A stretch of DNA of 64,000 bases, from positions 10,354,101-10,418,100 of the forward strand of contig NC_003074.8 of the NCBI RefSeq assembly GCF_000001735.4, given 5' to 3'. Below, piece after piece: positions 3,132 to 61,287 of the stretch; position 1 is the stretch's first letter; every line of letters begins with the position of its first letter. Both the position numbers and the translations under genes were made by a program. This stretch comes from Arabidopsis thaliana (Eukaryota; Streptophyta; Magnoliopsida; Brassicales; Brassicaceae). Under the pieces are notes generated by a model that was not told the origin of the DNA, searched no databases, and was given only the letters and a program-made list of their open reading frames with translations.

Positions 3132-4287
3132 TCAAATCGTTATATCGAAACATTCAACAATTGTTGATGAATTTTCCAAAGTTAGCACAAGATTATACCA
3201 CAAAATCTTTCCCCAAATCTCTCCTTGTTGTCCTCGCCTTTCCAGTGCAATTTTTATACACCAAAGCTCTGTTCCTCCATTTTTATCAAGGTTGAGCAAA
3301 ATTACGAGCTTTCCGCCATGATTTGCCATTCTAGACCCAAGAGTTCCATCCATTTTTGGTATATCTTCAATACCTTTCACGAAACTCCACACCCTAACAC
3401 TTGGATCATAGACACGTACTCGATAAATACGTTTTACACTGTCAAAACCAAAAGTATACAACATGTTGTCAATAACGCACGAACCAACTACCCAATCTCT
3501 ATCCAATAAGAAGTCCCTCTCCCATACACCTTTCTTAGGATCGAAAACAATGCCATTTCCACGATCCATTATGTAAATCTTCTTGTTCATCACAACACTC
3601 TTGAGCGTTATCTTGGACAACTCTTCATTACACAATCCTGAAAAAGACTCCCAAGTTTGCTTCTCGAGGTCAAAAACCTCAACCCAATTATCCAACGAAT
3701 CTGCCTTATTATACCCTCCAATTACATAAATCTTCCCATCTACGATACCAAACGCCGCACAGCCACGTGGCACACGCATACTAGGAAGAAATTGAAATGT
3801 TCCATGTAGGCAATCGATAACAAACACATTAGAAGTCATATCGCCATTGATACATCCACCAAAAACATAGATCTTGTGGCCTAATTGCAATAACAGAAGA
3901 TCCCCAACAAGGCAAAGACGGGCATGAAGGCAATGGAACCAATTTATGGATACAAGAGTTAGATTTATTTTTGTAAGGTTTTTGATTGAGAGTATACCAA
4001 ATAGGGTCTTCTTCATGGCTGAATCTCAAGGCAACATAGAGAACGTTTTCGGTCCGTTGAAAGAGTGAACGTACAATGTTCAGCTCGATCGAAGTGATTA
4101 AACGATTGAAAGTCTTTGAGACAAGAGATAGGGAAGGATAATCGCATCTTGGAATATATGCAAAACAGTTCACAATAATTTCATCTGGAAGCGGAAGAGA
4201 TGTTGGAGATGGAATTGATCTTGCAACAGTTGGTTTCTTGACCTTTGGTGTAGGATTTGCAGCGTTGACACTAACTACAAAAGTCAT
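3132..4287 (-). pseudogene. F-box/kelch-repeat gene with an apparent frameshift
   Basis: This is a member of the large Arabidopsis F-box/kelch family, whose intact members are SCF ubiquitin-ligase substrate adaptors. Translation from the ATG at 4287 gives an F-box at about residues 30-75 (LPLPDEIIVNCFAYIPRCDY, then LSLVSKTFNRLI). The frame then runs out of phase near 3882, after the words CWGSSVIAI. Kelch repeats continue in the next frame: GHKIYVFGGCINGD, then DGKIYVIGGYNKADSLDNW, then NKKIYIMDRGNG. Dropping one base at the junction would join the two halves into about 384 residues, the usual family length. As it stands, either a truncated F-box protein or a kelch-only protein from an internal ATG (4016, about 294 aa) could be made. 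It probably corresponds to At3g27910, by neighbour order only. A sequencing or assembly error cannot be excluded. Confidence 0.8.
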
Positions 4288-22540: not shown

Positions 22541-23157
22541 ATTTTCCTTTTTTATGGTCAACATAAGAAAAAAACTTACTATTCATGTGTTAAATATACT
22601 TACATTATTGTAAATATAAATAAATAAAATGTAAAAATTCATGAAATTCTATCTTAAACTTTATTAGCATTGGCTAGCGTGTCAAAGACTTTTTCATATT
22701 AGACTAGGTATTTAATTATTAGATTTCATACCTTTTCTGTTTAATTATTAATTTTCCCCTTTTAATGGTCAACAGAAAAGAAAAGAAAAAAACTTACTAT
22801 TCGTGTGTTAAATCTACATACATTATGGTAATTGTAAATCAATAAATAAAATGTGAGAATTCATGAAATTCTATATTAAAACTTTATAATATTGACTCTT
22901 TTAACAAAAAAAACTTTATTACATTGACCAGAGTTGTTCAGGACTTTGTTTTTATATTAGGCTAGGTATCCAATTATTAGATTGCATACCCTTTTCTGTT
23001 TAATTACTATTTGTTTTCCTTTTTTATGGTCAACAGAAAAAAACTTACTATTCATGTGTTAAATAAACAATACATTATTGTAATTATATATAAATAAATA
23101 AAATGTGAAAATATATGAAATTCTATCTTAAACCTTATTACATTGATTTTTTTAAGA
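22541..23157 (+). repeat. Tandem repeat, about 2.6 units of 210-260 bp
   Basis: Three successive copies begin at about 22541, 22751 and 23013. Each starts TTTTCCTTTT-ATGGTCAAC (approximate), followed by AAAAAACTTACTATTC, GTGTGTTAAAT (or ATGTGTTAAAT), AATAAATAAAATGT and ATGAAATTCTAT. Copies 1 and 2 also share TTAGACTAGGTAT/TTAGGCTAGGTAT and TTTTCTGTTTAATTA. The third copy is truncated near 23157. Unit length differs because copy 2 holds a small insertion. It is non-coding, directly downstream of LBD26. Confidence 0.85.
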
Positions 23158-47760: not shown

Positions 47761-48785
47761 GTTTTAAAAAACTAAACAACTACACGAAGATAACGCAGAA
47801 AAGCCGGGTACTTTTTGTTTTCAATTATAAACGTCATGTTTCTCCCCTCTATAGCGTTAGAAACATCAGAATCTCCTCCAAATCTTTCTTCTGATTTCTC
47901 TATTTCCTTCTCAAGACCCTATCGAAAGCACAAATCATGCCAAACAATAAGTAACAAAAAAACACACAAAATCAATTAGTACCCGCAATTCACGCAACAA
48001 ATTTGTATGCATCTTGATTCAATATATTATCATATTTTCTCATATTTAGAATTTGTTTTCATAGAAAACTCGTAAATTTTAAAAATATCATTCAATGAGT
48101 TAGTTTTTTTATTAAATGGCTATTGTAATTAAAGATGAAGTACTAATAAATTTAGAGAGACTAATAATATATTATTTATTTTCGTTTATAAATTTAATAA
48201 AATACAAATTTACATTTTGATAAGTTTTATATTATTTGATTACAAAATATTTAGAAAACTTTCCATATTTTCAAAAAAAAAATTATTTTCTTATTTTGGG
48301 TTTTTCCATTTTACAAAAATCAAATAAGAAATAAAAAATAAGAATAATTTTATAAATATTAATTAGCTAGATGGCTTATAAAGATTGGTCGTTTTAAAAC
48401 TTAGGTGGACGGCTTTAGAAGCAAATAGCTTCAACTTTTATATAATATTGATTAGTTGTTTGTGATTTATTTAATTTTCCCTAAACTTTTAACCCATTAA
48501 AAGAGATGCCCTTACATCTTAGTCAAATAGTAACAACATGTATTTCAAATCTAAGGAAGAAAAATTATCTTATGGGTTATCATATTACTGTTAAATCAAA
48601 ATCAAATATTTTTCTTACCTAAATAAAGAGTCAAATTATCAAAAAAAAAACATTGAATTGTTTGACAAATTGCTAATAAATTAAATCATTGTATTATGGT
48701 ACATAATCTAAAAGCATTTAATTTTGAAAAACTTTTCAGCCTATATAAATCTCACGTAAATTCCAAAACACACAAAACAAGAAAA
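47760..48785. other. Upstream region of the second PMEI-like copy
   Basis: From about 48030 it is homologous to the upstream region of the first copy. A TATA box (CCTATATAAATCTCA) lies at 48740-48754, about 40 bp before the ATG. The in-frame upstream codons from 48696 are disregarded because they precede the TATA box. Confidence 0.7.
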
Positions 48786-49355
48786 ATGGTGGCATACGTC
48801 GATAAAAACTTTTCATTGGCTTGTTTTTTGGTTTTACTTCTTTTTGTTGACTCATCGTATGCAAGGTTTAATACGTTGGTTACAAAAGATCAGATCCACA
48901 CCATATGCACCAAACAAGAGATCAATTCTTCATTTTGTTTTCAAGTTCTAAATACAAATCCTGAAATTGCTAAATTAGATTTTCCTAGTCTCTTCAAATT
49001 TGTGCTTAATTATCAGGCTCAAAATATTTCGGATACGCTGAAGCAATTTAAGTTATCAGGAGGCTACATGCCGGATGTTGAATCTCAATATAGCTTATGC
49101 ATAGAATTATATGGATATGCTTTCGATAATCGTGATATTACCCTCAGATATTTAGCTGCCAAAGACTATAACAGCGTAAACACTAGGGTCAGTGGAACGT
49201 TGGAAGATATATTTACGTGTACTGATGATTTGTCAACAATGAAGCCAATACCACAATTTTTTATGACGGAAAGTAATTTGATTAAAGAATTGTCTAAGAT
49301 TCTCTTAGTGATTCTCGAATGTTTCATAAGTAAGAGAAAAGAATTCTGTAATTGA
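48786..49355 (+). CDS. Secreted PMEI-like (invertase/pectin methylesterase inhibitor) protein
   Basis: This intact single-exon gene encodes 189 aa. The signal peptide (residues about 1-27: MVAYVDKNFSLACFLVLLLF then VDSSYA) is followed by a four-helix PMEI-like domain. The first Cys pair lies in IHTICTKQEINSSFCF (C-x8-C, the hairpin disulfide of the family). A second pair lies in SLCIELY and FTCTDDL, and a further Cys pair sits near the C-terminus (LECFISKRKEFC). Family members inhibit either wall invertase or pectin methylesterase; which one, if any, cannot be told from sequence. It is the younger or better-preserved partner of a tandem pair with 45147-45730; promoter and 3' flank are duplicated too. 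The presence of a pectinesterase gene 7 kb away is suggestive but may be coincidence. Confidence 0.85.
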   Translation: MVAYVDKNFSLACFLVLLLFVDSSYARFNTLVTKDQIHTICTKQEINSSFCFQVLNTNPEIAKLDFPSLFKFVLNYQAQNISDTLKQFKLSGGYMPDVESQYSLCIELYGYAFDNRDITLRYLAAKDYNSVNTRVSGTLEDIFTCTDDLSTMKPIPQFFMTESNLIKELSKILLVILECFISKRKEFCN

Positions 49356-52072: not shown

Positions 52073-52080
52073 AACATAAC

Positions 52081-53220
52081 TAGGGGTGTCAAAATGGGTC
52101 AAAATTCATGGGTCAACTCAACTCAACTCAACCCATGAACCCTAATGAGTTGAAAATTTTGACTCGAATGAGTTGATGGGTCAAATGAGTTGATGAGTCA
52201 ATTGGTGTGATGAGTAAAATGAGTTGGGTTGTAATGGTTAATAGTTTCAATGATTTACCCAATTAACCCATCAAATTTTGTAAAATTGAATTAAACCAAC
52301 TAAAATCTCTAAATCAATACCAATTTAAGTTTAACCAACACATCTAAACCAATTTAATAAAAATAATATTTTTCCAAATTTCTTAAATATACAAGCGATG
52401 AAATTGAGAAAAAGTAAACTCGTAATTTTTCCACCAAAAAACATAAACCCATGATTTTTCTGCCAAAAACGTAAACCCATGATTTTCCCGCCAAAAACAT
52501 AAACCTGTGATTTTCCCGCCAAAAACGTAAACCCGTGTTTTTCCCGCCAAAAACGTAAATCCGTGATTTTCCAGCCAAAAACGTAAACCCAAGATTTTCC
52601 CGCCAAAAACATAAATCCATAATTTTCCCGCCAAAAACGTAAACCCGTAATTTCCCGTCAAAAACGTAAACCCGTAATTTTCCTTCCAAAAACGTAAACC
52701 CATGATTTTCCCGTCAAAAACATAAACTCGTAATTTTCCCGCCAAAAATGTAAACCCGTGATTTTTCCGCCAAAAACGTAAATTCGTGGTTTTTCCGCCA
52801 AAAACGTAAACCCAAAATTTTCCCGCCAAAAACGTAAACCCGTAATTTTCCTCCCAAAAACGTAAACCCGTAATTTTCCCGCCAAAAATGTAAACCTAAT
52901 ATTTTCCCGCCAAAAATGTAAACCCGTGATTTTTCCGCCAAAAACATAAACCCGTGAAAAGTGGAATCCGTAAATATCTTAAGTTTGATGATAATGAATT
53001 AATAATGATAATTATTTATTATTGTTTTATGATAATAATTAATTAAATTATTACTTAAATGGGTTAACCCATTTAAAACCTCAACCCATCAAATTAAATG
53101 AGTTATGAGTTGATCCAACCCATTTAACAACATGAGTTGGGTCAACCCATAACTCATTTAATTCTAAACTCATTTGATTATGAATTGAGTTGAGTTGGGT
53201 TATCCATTTTGATAACCCTA
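52081..53220. mobile_element. Non-autonomous hAT element carrying an E2F-site array (copy 1)
   Basis: The 1140-bp element starts TAGGGGTGTCAAAATGGGTC and ends with the diverged inverse, TATCCATTTTGATAACCCTA. The flanking octamers are identical (AACATAAC, 52073-52080 and 53221-53228), as expected for hAT insertion. Subterminal GGGTCAACTCAACTC and AACCCATTTAACAAC words are themselves complementary between the ends. The middle is a 28-bp tandem array (listed separately). There is no transposase. A related element lies at 59926-61287. Confidence 0.9.
52427..52960 (-). repeat. 28-bp minisatellite of E2F-like sites, ~19 units
   Basis: The unit is approximately GTAAACCCGTGATTTTCCCG followed by CCAAAAAC. 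Its core TTTCCCGCCAAA matches the E2F consensus TTTSSCGSSAAA, and the other strand reads TTTGGCGGGAAA. By eye about 9 units keep the perfect core and others have one change (TTTTTCCGCC, CCCGTC, CCAGCC). Because 28 is not a multiple of three, all three minus-strand frames stay open and read as FGGKI-(T/M)-GLRFWRENHGFTFLAGK-type repeats; these are not treated as genes. Confidence 0.9.
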
Positions 53221-53228
53221 AACATAAC

Positions 53229-54142: not shown

Positions 54143-55533
54143 TCAAGCTGAAACTCGTTTAGCTTGTCCACTGTTGCCACTAAGTTGTAACTGAGAGTTA
54201 ACCTTAGAAAGATTCTCCTCATCTTCTTCATCTTCATCATCTTTTGGTGTTGTCTTGTAATAGCAAGCATAGAGTATAAGTTGTACTGCTCCTGATACCG
54301 TTCCAAGTCCATTTCCAATCTATGAAAAAAATAACTAAGTGAAACTACTAATAGAAGAAGAATAGTATATAGTAACATATATCATTTAATAAACTTACCA
54401 AAATGAAAAGGTCGAACTTAATAAGTGCATAAATAACCCAAACGACACCATTGAGGAAATTGGCAAGTGAGAGAGAGAATGGCATGTACTTCACACTTTT
54501 GGTCTTGATCACCTTACTCTGTTTCAATCACAACAAAAATATCATGTTTTTAAATTATTGAAAATGAGAGAAAATACTAAATATTTAAGAAAGAAAAGAA
54601 GAGGATATTTATAAATAATATTTTACCATGATGGTGAGAGGAGCAATATACATGAGACTAACAAAAATGACACAAAAGATTCCAACAAAAGAAGATCTCT
54701 GGTTATGTGTGTGGAACAATAGCAATGTGCATGTGGCTACTATTCCTACAAACACCATCTCTCCTATTAACCATAGCCCCACTTTCACCTGCACCATGAA
54801 CCAATTTGATTAAAATAATTTCAGAAAAAAAAAAAAAAATCTACAAACATTTTGTTTTGCCTATCACTATCCTAAAACAGAATCAATCATAGTCTACCAC
54901 TTCTTATTACTATAATGTTTTAGCTTTCAATTTAAGCCAAACCTAATAGCGATTTTAGGTTTAGATAATGATTGGAAAAAACATTTAATAAAATTAAGTG
55001 AAAAGAATTGAGATATGAATGGAAATTACTAAACCTTGCGACTAGTTGGAGAAAAGAAGAAGAAGATAGCGAGATACACCAGCTCAATGGCTAAACCGGT
55101 ACCATTTATGGTGATCACAAGGAGACTATCTGGTTGAACCATTGGTAAGCCATAAAAGACCCATAGTGCGCAATTTAGAACCGTGGCTAAGTATGGGTCA
55201 GCTTTGTACTCCTCCACCTTTTTCTTCTTGTATATGGTTATGAACGTAGGTCTGCGTAAATATACATACTTATAAACATTAATTTAAGAGATCTATAAGT
55301 TGTTATAACTTATAAGTTTATAGCTAGATAGAGAGAGATTAATTATAATGATTACATGGGAGATAAGAACAAGAACAAGGAGATGACATTTCCTGCGACG
55401 ATAAACAAATAGTTTATAAAGTATTAGTAAACAAAGATTAGAGATTCTTCAAAATGTTCTTATACATACGAAACTCATATTTATACGTACCACAAATGCC
55501 GGCAATGTTTCTCGCAACTGTAGCGTTAACCAT
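54143..55533 (-). CDS. SWEET4: SWEET4 sugar transporter
   Basis: This is a plasma-membrane bidirectional sugar uniporter of the SWEET family (clade II, glucose/fructose). Exons (minus strand): 55533-55491, 55392-55356, 55251-55035, 54788-54627, 54518-54399, 54319-54143. They total 756 nt, 251 aa. The tiny first two exons are typical of SWEET genes. Two MtN3/saliva triple-helix bundles are visible: [20 protein letters not shown] (TM1), [18 protein letters not shown], the third helix, a linker helix, then [19 protein letters not shown] and [20 protein letters not shown] followed by VIYAL, and [20 protein letters not shown]. The conserved Pro residues (LSPIPTF, YGLPMV, APLTIM, MPFSLS) and the Asn-Trp/Trp pairs lining the pocket are present. 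An acidic cytosolic tail (DDEDEEDEE) ends VSA. It matches At3g28007 by recall. Confidence 0.95.
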
Positions 55534-59925: not shown

Positions 59926-61287
59926 TAGGGGTGTCAAAATGGGTCAAAATTCATGGGTCAACTCAACTCAACTCAACCCATGAACTTTAATGAGTTAAAA
60001 TTTTTGACTCAAATGAGTTGATGGGTCAAATGAGTTATTTGGTCAATTGGTTTGATGAGTCAAATGAGTTGGGTTGTAATGGTTAATGGTTTCAATGGTT
60101 TACCCAATTAACCTATCAAGTTTTGTAAAATTGAATGAAACCAACTAAAATCTTTAAACCAATGCCAATTTAAGCTTAACCAACACATCTAAACCAATTT
60201 AATAAAATAAATATTTTTCCAAATTTCTTAAATATACAAGTGATGAAATTGAGAAAAAGTAAACTCGTAATTTTTCCACCAAAAAACATAAACCCGTGAT
60301 TTTTCCGCCAAAAACGTAAATTCGTAATTTTCCCGCCAAAAACCAAAACCTGTGATTTTCCCGCCAAAAACGTAAACCCGTGATTTTCCTGCCAAAAACG
60401 TAAACTCGTAATTTTCCCGCCAAAAACCAAAACCTGTGATTTTCCCGCCAAAAACCAAAACCTGTGATTTTCCCGCCAAAAACATAAACCTGTGATTTTC
60501 CTGCCAAAAACGTAAACTCGTAATTTTCCCGCCAAAAACCAAAACCTGTGATTTTCCCACCAAAAACGTAAACCCATGATTTTCCCGCCAAAAACGTAAA
60601 CCCGTAATTTTTCCGCCAAAAACGTTAACCCGTGATTTTCCTGCAGAAACGTATACCCGTAATTTTCCCGCCAAAAACTTAAACCTATAAACCTGTGATT
60701 TTCCCGCCAAAAACGTAAACCCGTGATTTTCCCGCCAAAAACGTAAACCGTAATTTTCCCGCCAAAAACGTAAACCCGTGATTTTCCCGCCAAAAACGTA
60801 AACCCATAATTTTTCCGTCAAAAAAATGTAAACCCGTGATTTTCCCGCAGAAACGTATACCCATAATTTTCCCGCCAAAAAACGTAAACCTATGATTTTC
60901 CCGCCAAAAACGTAAACCTGTAAACCTGTGATTTTCTCGCCAAAAACGTAAACCTGTGATTTTCCCGCCAAAAACGTAAATCCGTAATTTTCTCGCCGAA
61001 AACGTAAATCCATAAAAAGTGGAATCCGTAAATATTCTAAGTTTGATGATAATAAAATAATAATTATTAATAATGATAATTATTTATTATTGTTTCATAA
61101 TAATAATTAATTAAATTATTACTTAAGTGAGTTAACCCATTTAACAACTCAACCCATCAAATTAAATGAGTTATAGGTTGACCAACCCATTTAACAAAAT
61201 GGGTTAGTCAACCTATAACTCATTTAACCCTAAACTCATTTGATTATGAGTTGAGTTGAGTTGGGTTTACCTATTTTGACACCCCTA
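59926..61287. mobile_element. Non-autonomous hAT element carrying an E2F-site array (copy 2)
   Basis: The 1362-bp element has termini TAGGGGTGTCAAAATGGGTC and CCTATTTTGACACCCCTA. Flanking octamers are ATTATATA (59918-59925) and ATTATACA (61288-61295), one mismatch. Outer regions match copy 1 at 52081-53220 nearly base for base (CATGGGTCAACTCAACTC, AAATTTCTTAAATATACAAG, GTGGAATCCGTAAATAT). The internal array is longer than in copy 1. There is no transposase gene. Confidence 0.9.
60262..61015 (-). repeat. 28-bp minisatellite of E2F-like sites, ~27 units
   Basis: Same unit as at 52427-52960. By eye about 15 units keep the perfect TTTTCCCGCCAAAA core. Variants include AAAACCAAAACC in place of AAAACGTAAACC, which itself recurs periodically and indicates block duplication inside the array, and two CCCGCAGAAACGTATACCC-type units. 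All three minus-strand frames are open over hundreds of bases for the same arithmetic reason as in copy 1. Confidence 0.9.

Follow-up and report, generated by a model that had tools for sequence, protein, structure and literature searches.

E2F-type site arrays in a short hAT element of Arabidopsis thaliana and in its relatives

How did a transposon come to carry about twenty copies of a host transcription-factor site, and do these sites act on the genes beside it? Both questions are raised by a non-autonomous hAT element, here called copy 1, in a 64-kb stretch of the A. thaliana genome (C3:10354101-10418100; hereafter, the window). The reading that we consider probable is that this element, with its ~20 E2F-type sites, is one of many passive E2F-RBR sinks, that it has been decaying neutrally since insertion, and that it has little or no effect on the nearby SWEET gene.

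The amplification of E2F sites by transposable elements (TEs) is already in print, and copy 1 is a good example of it rather than a surprise. An excerpt of PMC12595863 attributes this amplification in Brassicaceae mainly to hAT, PIF/Harbinger and MULE MITEs, plus Helitrons, reports that TE-borne E2F motifs can bind E2Fa, and places such motifs near genes in A. thaliana, where they are polymorphic among ecotypes. Excerpts of other papers add that E2Fa binds such TEs in vivo, as seen by ChIP, and that promoters may be influenced, or E2F diluted, by these sites (both PMC4110626), that an E2F motif was captured by A. thaliana MITEs (PMC13317346), and that AtRBR binds MITEs (PMC7404004). The connection that the initial annotation of this locus had made to transposon-driven amplification of E2F motifs in Brassicaceae is thus borne out by the excerpts of PMC12595863 and PMC4110626. 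Copy 1 resembles the E2F-site MITEs of that family (Henaff et al., 2014, Plant J 77:852), whose amplification of the E2F consensus, in Arabidopsis too, is known to us via partial descriptions in PMC12595863, PMC4110626 and PMC13317346; E2Fa binding to these MITEs and a suggested dilution of E2F are likewise given as later papers describe them. The excerpts of PMC12477314, PMC8725346 and PMC7956360 repeat the 2014 result or place RB proteins on TEs in plants and mammals, and those of PMC11658180, PMC5167521 and PMC7385995 hold nothing on these arrays.

The element and its array

Copy 1 contains no transposase gene, and three features mark it as a hAT element (Table 1): an 8-bp target-site duplication (TSD), short inverted ends of the TAGGG type, and ends common to an element that bears a hAT transposase (L059, see below). 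TAGGG ends are typical of hAT elements. Over their first 17 bases, the two inverted ends share 15 positions in copy 1 and 16 in copy 2, a second element of the same family within the window. The initial annotation had placed the array inside a hAT element with perfect TSDs, and this description stands, with the addition that the element is one of many copies. Ds-like elements are non-autonomous hATs made by internal deletion; copy 1 is like them in its 8-bp TSD, its TAGGG ends and the sharing of these ends with a transposase-bearing element, and unlike them in that a host transcription-factor site, repeated in an array, makes up its interior. In its right part, a stretch of ~70 bp (window 53092-53163; element query 1013-1084) matches itself on both strands, and this self-complementary stretch could possibly form a hairpin.

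Table 1. Positions of the element, its array, its neighbours and its transposase-bearing relative (window coordinates unless a contig is given)
Feature	Position	Strand	Remarks
Open frame with PMEI domain	48696-49355	+	ends towards copy 1
Open frame, 130 aa	50029-50421		
Left TSD of copy 1, AACATAAC	52073-52080		identical to 53221-53228
Copy 1, non-autonomous hAT element, 1140 bp	52081-53220	+	left end TAGGGGTGTCAAAATGG
Copy 1, left part common to transposase-bearing L059	52081-52362	+	92.6% identity, 283 columns
Copy 1, array of 28-bp units	52409-52957	+	TRF: period 28, 19.6 copies, 84% match, 0% indels
Copy 1, right part	52958-53220	+	GAGTTG/CAACTC motifs near end
Right TSD of copy 1, AACATAAC	53221-53228		8/8 match to left one
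SWEET (MtN3_slv) domain matches, two	55044-55247, then 54348-54518	-	C3:10409144-10409347, C3:10408448-10408618
Copy 2 (L032), 1362 bp	59926-61287	+	TSD ATTATATA/ATTATACA, 7/8
Copy 2, array	60254-61015	+	about 26 units, 15 exact cores
L059, transposase-bearing hAT, 4037 bp	C4:2789604-2793640		family A ends, inverted pair; TSD GGAAGAAG, 8/8

The array had been annotated as about 19 units of 28 bp at 52427-52960 with about nine exact cores, and both figures hold: TRF delimits 19.6 units over a slightly different interval (Table 1), and 9 of the 19 core positions read exactly TTTTCCCGCCAAAA (starting at 52483, 52511, 52539, 52595, 52623, 52734, 52818, 52874 and 52902), the other ten carrying one or two changes when read singly. 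The core had also been called exactly palindromic, which it is not: the reverse complement of TTTTCCCGCCAAAA is TTTTGGCGGGAAAA, and the degenerate consensus alone is self-complementary. In 500 dinucleotide-preserving shuffles of the copy-1 array itself, TTTTCCCGCCAAAA appeared 0.00 times on average (maximum 1) against nine in the array, the consensus TTTSSCGSSAAA 0.01 times against nine, and the looser TTTSSCGS 0.51 times against 21. Across the window, the 14-mer TTTTCCCGCCAAAA occurs 24 times (nine in copy 1, 15 in copy 2; expected, 0.00), as does TTTSSCGSSAAA (expected, 0.02). With so many TTTSSCGSSAAA matches above chance, the copy-1 array has the composition of an E2F/DP-site array.

Helical phasing of the cores was considered and rejected: the DNA helix has 10.5 bp per turn, and a period of 28 bp, i.e., about 2.7 turns, puts adjacent cores on different sides. 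The 28-bp unit is stop-free on the minus strand, which yields long open frames that repeat a short peptide (window 52331-52829 and 60176-61013, up to 148 and 261 aa); these are likely spurious gene calls. Elsewhere in the window, a tandem duplication of 251 bp (1.8 copies, 81% match) lies at 22691-23155.

Same-end copies and the change in array length

The genome (119,662,809 bases in 7 contigs) was searched with copy 1, an array-bearing query, and 40 of the 210 candidates, both window copies included, were scored (L009-L048, here the family A copies). The left part of copy 1 matches in 40/40 of these loci and the right part in 39/40, and both ends could be mapped in 36. Among these 36 copies the TSD agrees at 8/8 positions in 25, at 7/8 in nine, at 6/8 in one and at 5/8 in one, each score being the best of 49 offsets; the TSD of L037 is the low-complexity TATATATA. 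The 20-base family A end is found at 140 places in the genome (either end, up to two mismatches), and its control at 0.

The transposase-bearing L059 encodes the domains zf-BED (PF02892), hAT RNase-H (PF14372) and hAT dimerisation (PF05699) in three separate frames, and holds an array of 4.4 units with a period of 29-30 at 3636-3763 (5 units by the unit matcher). In addition to the shared left part (Table 1), the right part of copy 1 together with its last array units matches the right end of L059 at 83.7% over 404 columns. Two relics, L061 and L063, retain transposase pieces at 88-94% identity and arrays of 4.3 and 4.7 units by TRF (3 each by the unit matcher), and in L060 (67% transposase identity) no array was found within the 4.5 kb read, in which the left end alone was found. 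The 40 scored loci, in a sample chosen by likeness to copy 1, hold 759 units, with 12-30 per locus. Four shorter end pairs, taken from the 20-base-end search, were additionally read: L064 (362 bp) has both ends, no clear duplication and 0 units, L065 (C1:16737800-16738540; 682 bp) has units in both orientations (4+5), L066 (795 bp, TSD 8/8) has 7 units, and L067 has 9. These pairs led us to reject the idea that every short copy has a long array, the 40 scored loci having come from an array-bearing query. The short copies span 0 to 30 units, and therefore both gain and loss of units occurred. L065 looks like two left halves joined head to head, with a left-type family A end at either side.

Copy 1 is most likely an internal-deletion derivative of the transposase-bearing form with an array grown from about 4-5 units, a direction of change that we infer; the opposite direction, i.e., contraction of the array in the transposase-bearing form, is possible. 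Under the passive-sink reading that we prefer, internal deletion of a transposase-bearing hAT would have produced the short form, in which the run of sites would have grown from those few units; hAT transposase would then have copied the short form around the genome, and wherever a copy landed, E2F/DP and, via them, RBR would find closely spaced docking sites.

The same difference in length, with 12-30 units in the 40 short copies picked for their likeness to copy 1 against some 4-5 in L059 and the two relics, could instead point to an adaptation of the transposon, in which binding of E2F and RBR would tie the element to S phase or to the open chromatin of dividing cells and raise transposition, so that long arrays would be favoured while the element is active. 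We regard this as doubtful. The 40 copies are the best of 210 candidates found with an array-bearing query, the same-end copies with 0, 7, 9 and inverted 4+5 units argue that array length varies freely, and the long arrays are accounted for equally well by a founder effect.

A different origin of the units was also weighed. hAT transposases bind subterminal repeats, and the 28-bp units might be such repeats of the element, with which the location of the L059 array, no more than about 400 bp from the right end, would agree. We find this hardly credible, since the array of copy 1 is one-sided and internal, better candidates for this role are the GAGTTG/CAACTC motifs that copy 1 and L059 have near each end, L064 has both ends and no unit, and L062, a relative of a second hAT family (family B, see below), has both of its family's ends and no array.

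Array length varies widely among same-end copies, being long in the nearest copies of copy 1 and short in the element with the transposase, and this variation deserves a closer look: a series of copies that have their ends in common and differ in unit number (0, 4-5, 7, 9 or 12-30) makes it directly testable whether host cell-cycle sites aid the spread of a transposon. The presence of an array in family B, as opposed to none in its one transposase-bearing relative read, also deserves attention.

The core in other families, in the genome and over time

Family B (L051, L001) has 27-bp units with the same core, spacers such as ACGCAATTTAACA and different ends (TAGAGATGTT); by eye, its TSD is 7/8 at L001, and no clean one was seen at L051. 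Both family B ends were found at 75-78% in L062, a transposase match with 50% identity to that of L059, in which no array and no TTTCCCGC were detected, and three other places match the family B right end only, beside hAT domains. In family C (L055, 3552-4296), a 27-bp array with the spacer CCGCAAAATCATG lies in an element flanked by TAA with the left end GGCCCTATTTGTTT, as read by eye, which we take to be PIF/Harbinger from its looks. The consensus cores of the three families are identical and recur with a period of 27-28 bp; the spacers differ, and all start with NCG and are A-rich, and the units of families A, B and C may be distantly related by descent. A fourth spacer type, in which the core is followed by ACCGTAAAATCGGAGAATTG, was seen in L007 and L008, with one and two exact cores, and L049, L050, L053 and L056 hold no more than a few TTTCCCGCCAAA sites, or just one, surrounded by different A/T-rich sequence and in some cases on both strands; these apparently come from further TE families.

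That a 14-bp core recurs at nearly the same period in three families despite different spacers, and that L062 has both family B ends without an array, speaks for an adaptation of the transposon. A wider form of this idea would make E2F-site arrays a repeatedly evolved selfish feature: in transposase-less forms, a small number of sites would have multiplied several-fold in family A and sites would have arisen anew in family B, and these would recruit E2F-RBR and couple hAT mobilisation to S phase, with the genome-wide sink as a by-product. We consider this, too, unlikely.

Genome-wide, the 14-mer TTTTCCCGCCAAAA occurs 1184 times (654+530) and its reversed control 0 times, and TTTSSCGSSAAA occurs at 1811 places and its reversed control at 49. 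When the first 100 listed 14-mer places, i.e., contig C1 up to about 10.53 Mb, a single and non-random stretch, were assigned by their flanking letters, 63 fell to family A, 12 to B, 9 to C, 3 to D and 13 to no family, 6 of these 13 lying inside the family B arrays of L051 and L001. Titration of E2F, a published suggestion, would be compatible with 1184 perfect sites. If most perfect E2F sites lie in transposons, then considerations of E2F dosage, ChIP/DAP data and promoter scans must allow for them.

Whether the cores have been protected since insertion bears on the choice between these readings. Outside the array, family A copies diverge from their consensus by 3.05% in the left part (39/40 copies) and 3.92% in the right part (33/40). 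Singletons served as a measure of change since insertion in 38/40 arrays; the comparison is rough, given that the tandem alignment mixes non-homologous units. Per cell, they amount at A/T positions to 0.0063 in the core, 0.0051-0.0082 in the flanks and 0.0098 in the spacer, at C to 0.0146 in the core and 0.0123 in the spacer, against 0.0154-0.0155 at flank C/G, and at CpG to 0.0205 in the core and 0.0146 in the spacer (flank CpG, with 2 sites a side, was left out). General protection of the core since insertion was thus not seen in the singletons of these 38 family A arrays, in which the core changes about as much as the flanks, contrary to what constraint by the host would give. In agreement with the passive-sink reading, this would be a pattern of neutral decay. 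Against it counts the loss of CpG (TG+CA over CG+TG+CA; 40 loci, a rough measure), which is slightly to moderately lower in the core (98/709) than in the first (99/648) and second (128/611) spacer CpG.

Total variation tells a different story in family A, in which the core/spacer ratios among units are 0.21, 0.41 and 0.60 (locus-bootstrap intervals, 0.17-0.28, 0.37-0.46 and 0.48-0.73), the units having been collected with a single typed 28-mer at up to 9 mismatches. The lower variation of the core may reflect an older constraint in the active lineage, a hint for which the passive reading in its pure form has no call and that would suit an adaptation of the transposon. In families B and C, core and spacer are almost equally conserved (0.84-0.87 vs 0.83, and 0.90 vs 0.86), which argues against that adaptation; better conservation of the core as a general rule was accordingly rejected, families B and C hardly differing and the family A figures coming from the single-28-mer search.

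The decay of the core at about the rate of the flanks would also be expected if the units were a neutral minisatellite hitch-hiking in the element, with a likeness to E2F sites that is of no consequence at all, and the 0 to 30 units among the copies read are what slippage would give. We nonetheless hold such a minisatellite to be distinctly improbable, given that at least three TE families share the core and differ in their spacers, that consensus places far outnumber those of the control, and that in vivo binding of E2Fa is described in the excerpt of PMC4110626.

Neighbouring genes

The initial annotation had placed SWEET4 1 kb from the element and suggested that the array could impose cell-cycle-linked regulation on it. 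The distance is about right: the nearest SWEET domain of the gene, which we take to be SWEET4, is separated from the element by 1128 bp and from the array by 1391 bp. The orientation is not that of a promoter, because the domains run from 55247 down to 54348 on the minus strand and the element ends at 53220, so that the 3' end of the gene faces copy 1. With the gene on the minus strand and the element behind its 3' end, control of the SWEET promoter by the array is not supported. As far as the domain hits show, copy 1 lies between two converging genes, the other being that with the PMEI domain.

A TE-borne E2F-type site near a gene can nevertheless matter. According to the excerpt of PMC5464667, a transposon-like element upstream of AtDRTS3 contains an E2F-like site, and promoter strength rose when the upstream E2F sites of AtDRTS2 and AtDRTS3 were mutated. 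This case resembles the present one in that a TE delivered an E2F-type site in A. thaliana, and differs from it in position: the AtDRTS3 site lies upstream of its gene, where mutation of E2F sites raised promoter strength, whereas copy 1 lies 3' of both neighbours. The mutation effect implies that such sites can act locally, and to this extent it counts against the passive-sink reading. Two things speak for cell-cycle control of the SWEET gene: perfect sites lie densely packed about 1.1-1.4 kb away from the nearest SWEET domain, and a promoter with an E2F-like site borne by a TE has been published (PMC5464667, in part). With the element downstream of that gene, and a second gene likewise ending towards it, we judge such control highly unlikely; a 3' effect of copy 1 on the SWEET gene is possible. 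On the reading that we prefer, copy 1, behind two genes that point at it, would act as a passive sink in neutral decay, presumably bound by E2F with no local consequence of this binding.

A second SWEET gene, with two domain matches in one open frame (C1:24906577-24907203), has a family A copy in its vicinity: L025 (24907541-24908608), with 10 exact cores, begins 338 bp upstream of the nearest domain of this gene. The SWEET gene of contig C1 with L025 may be a better candidate for a local effect of E2F than the SWEET gene near copy 1.
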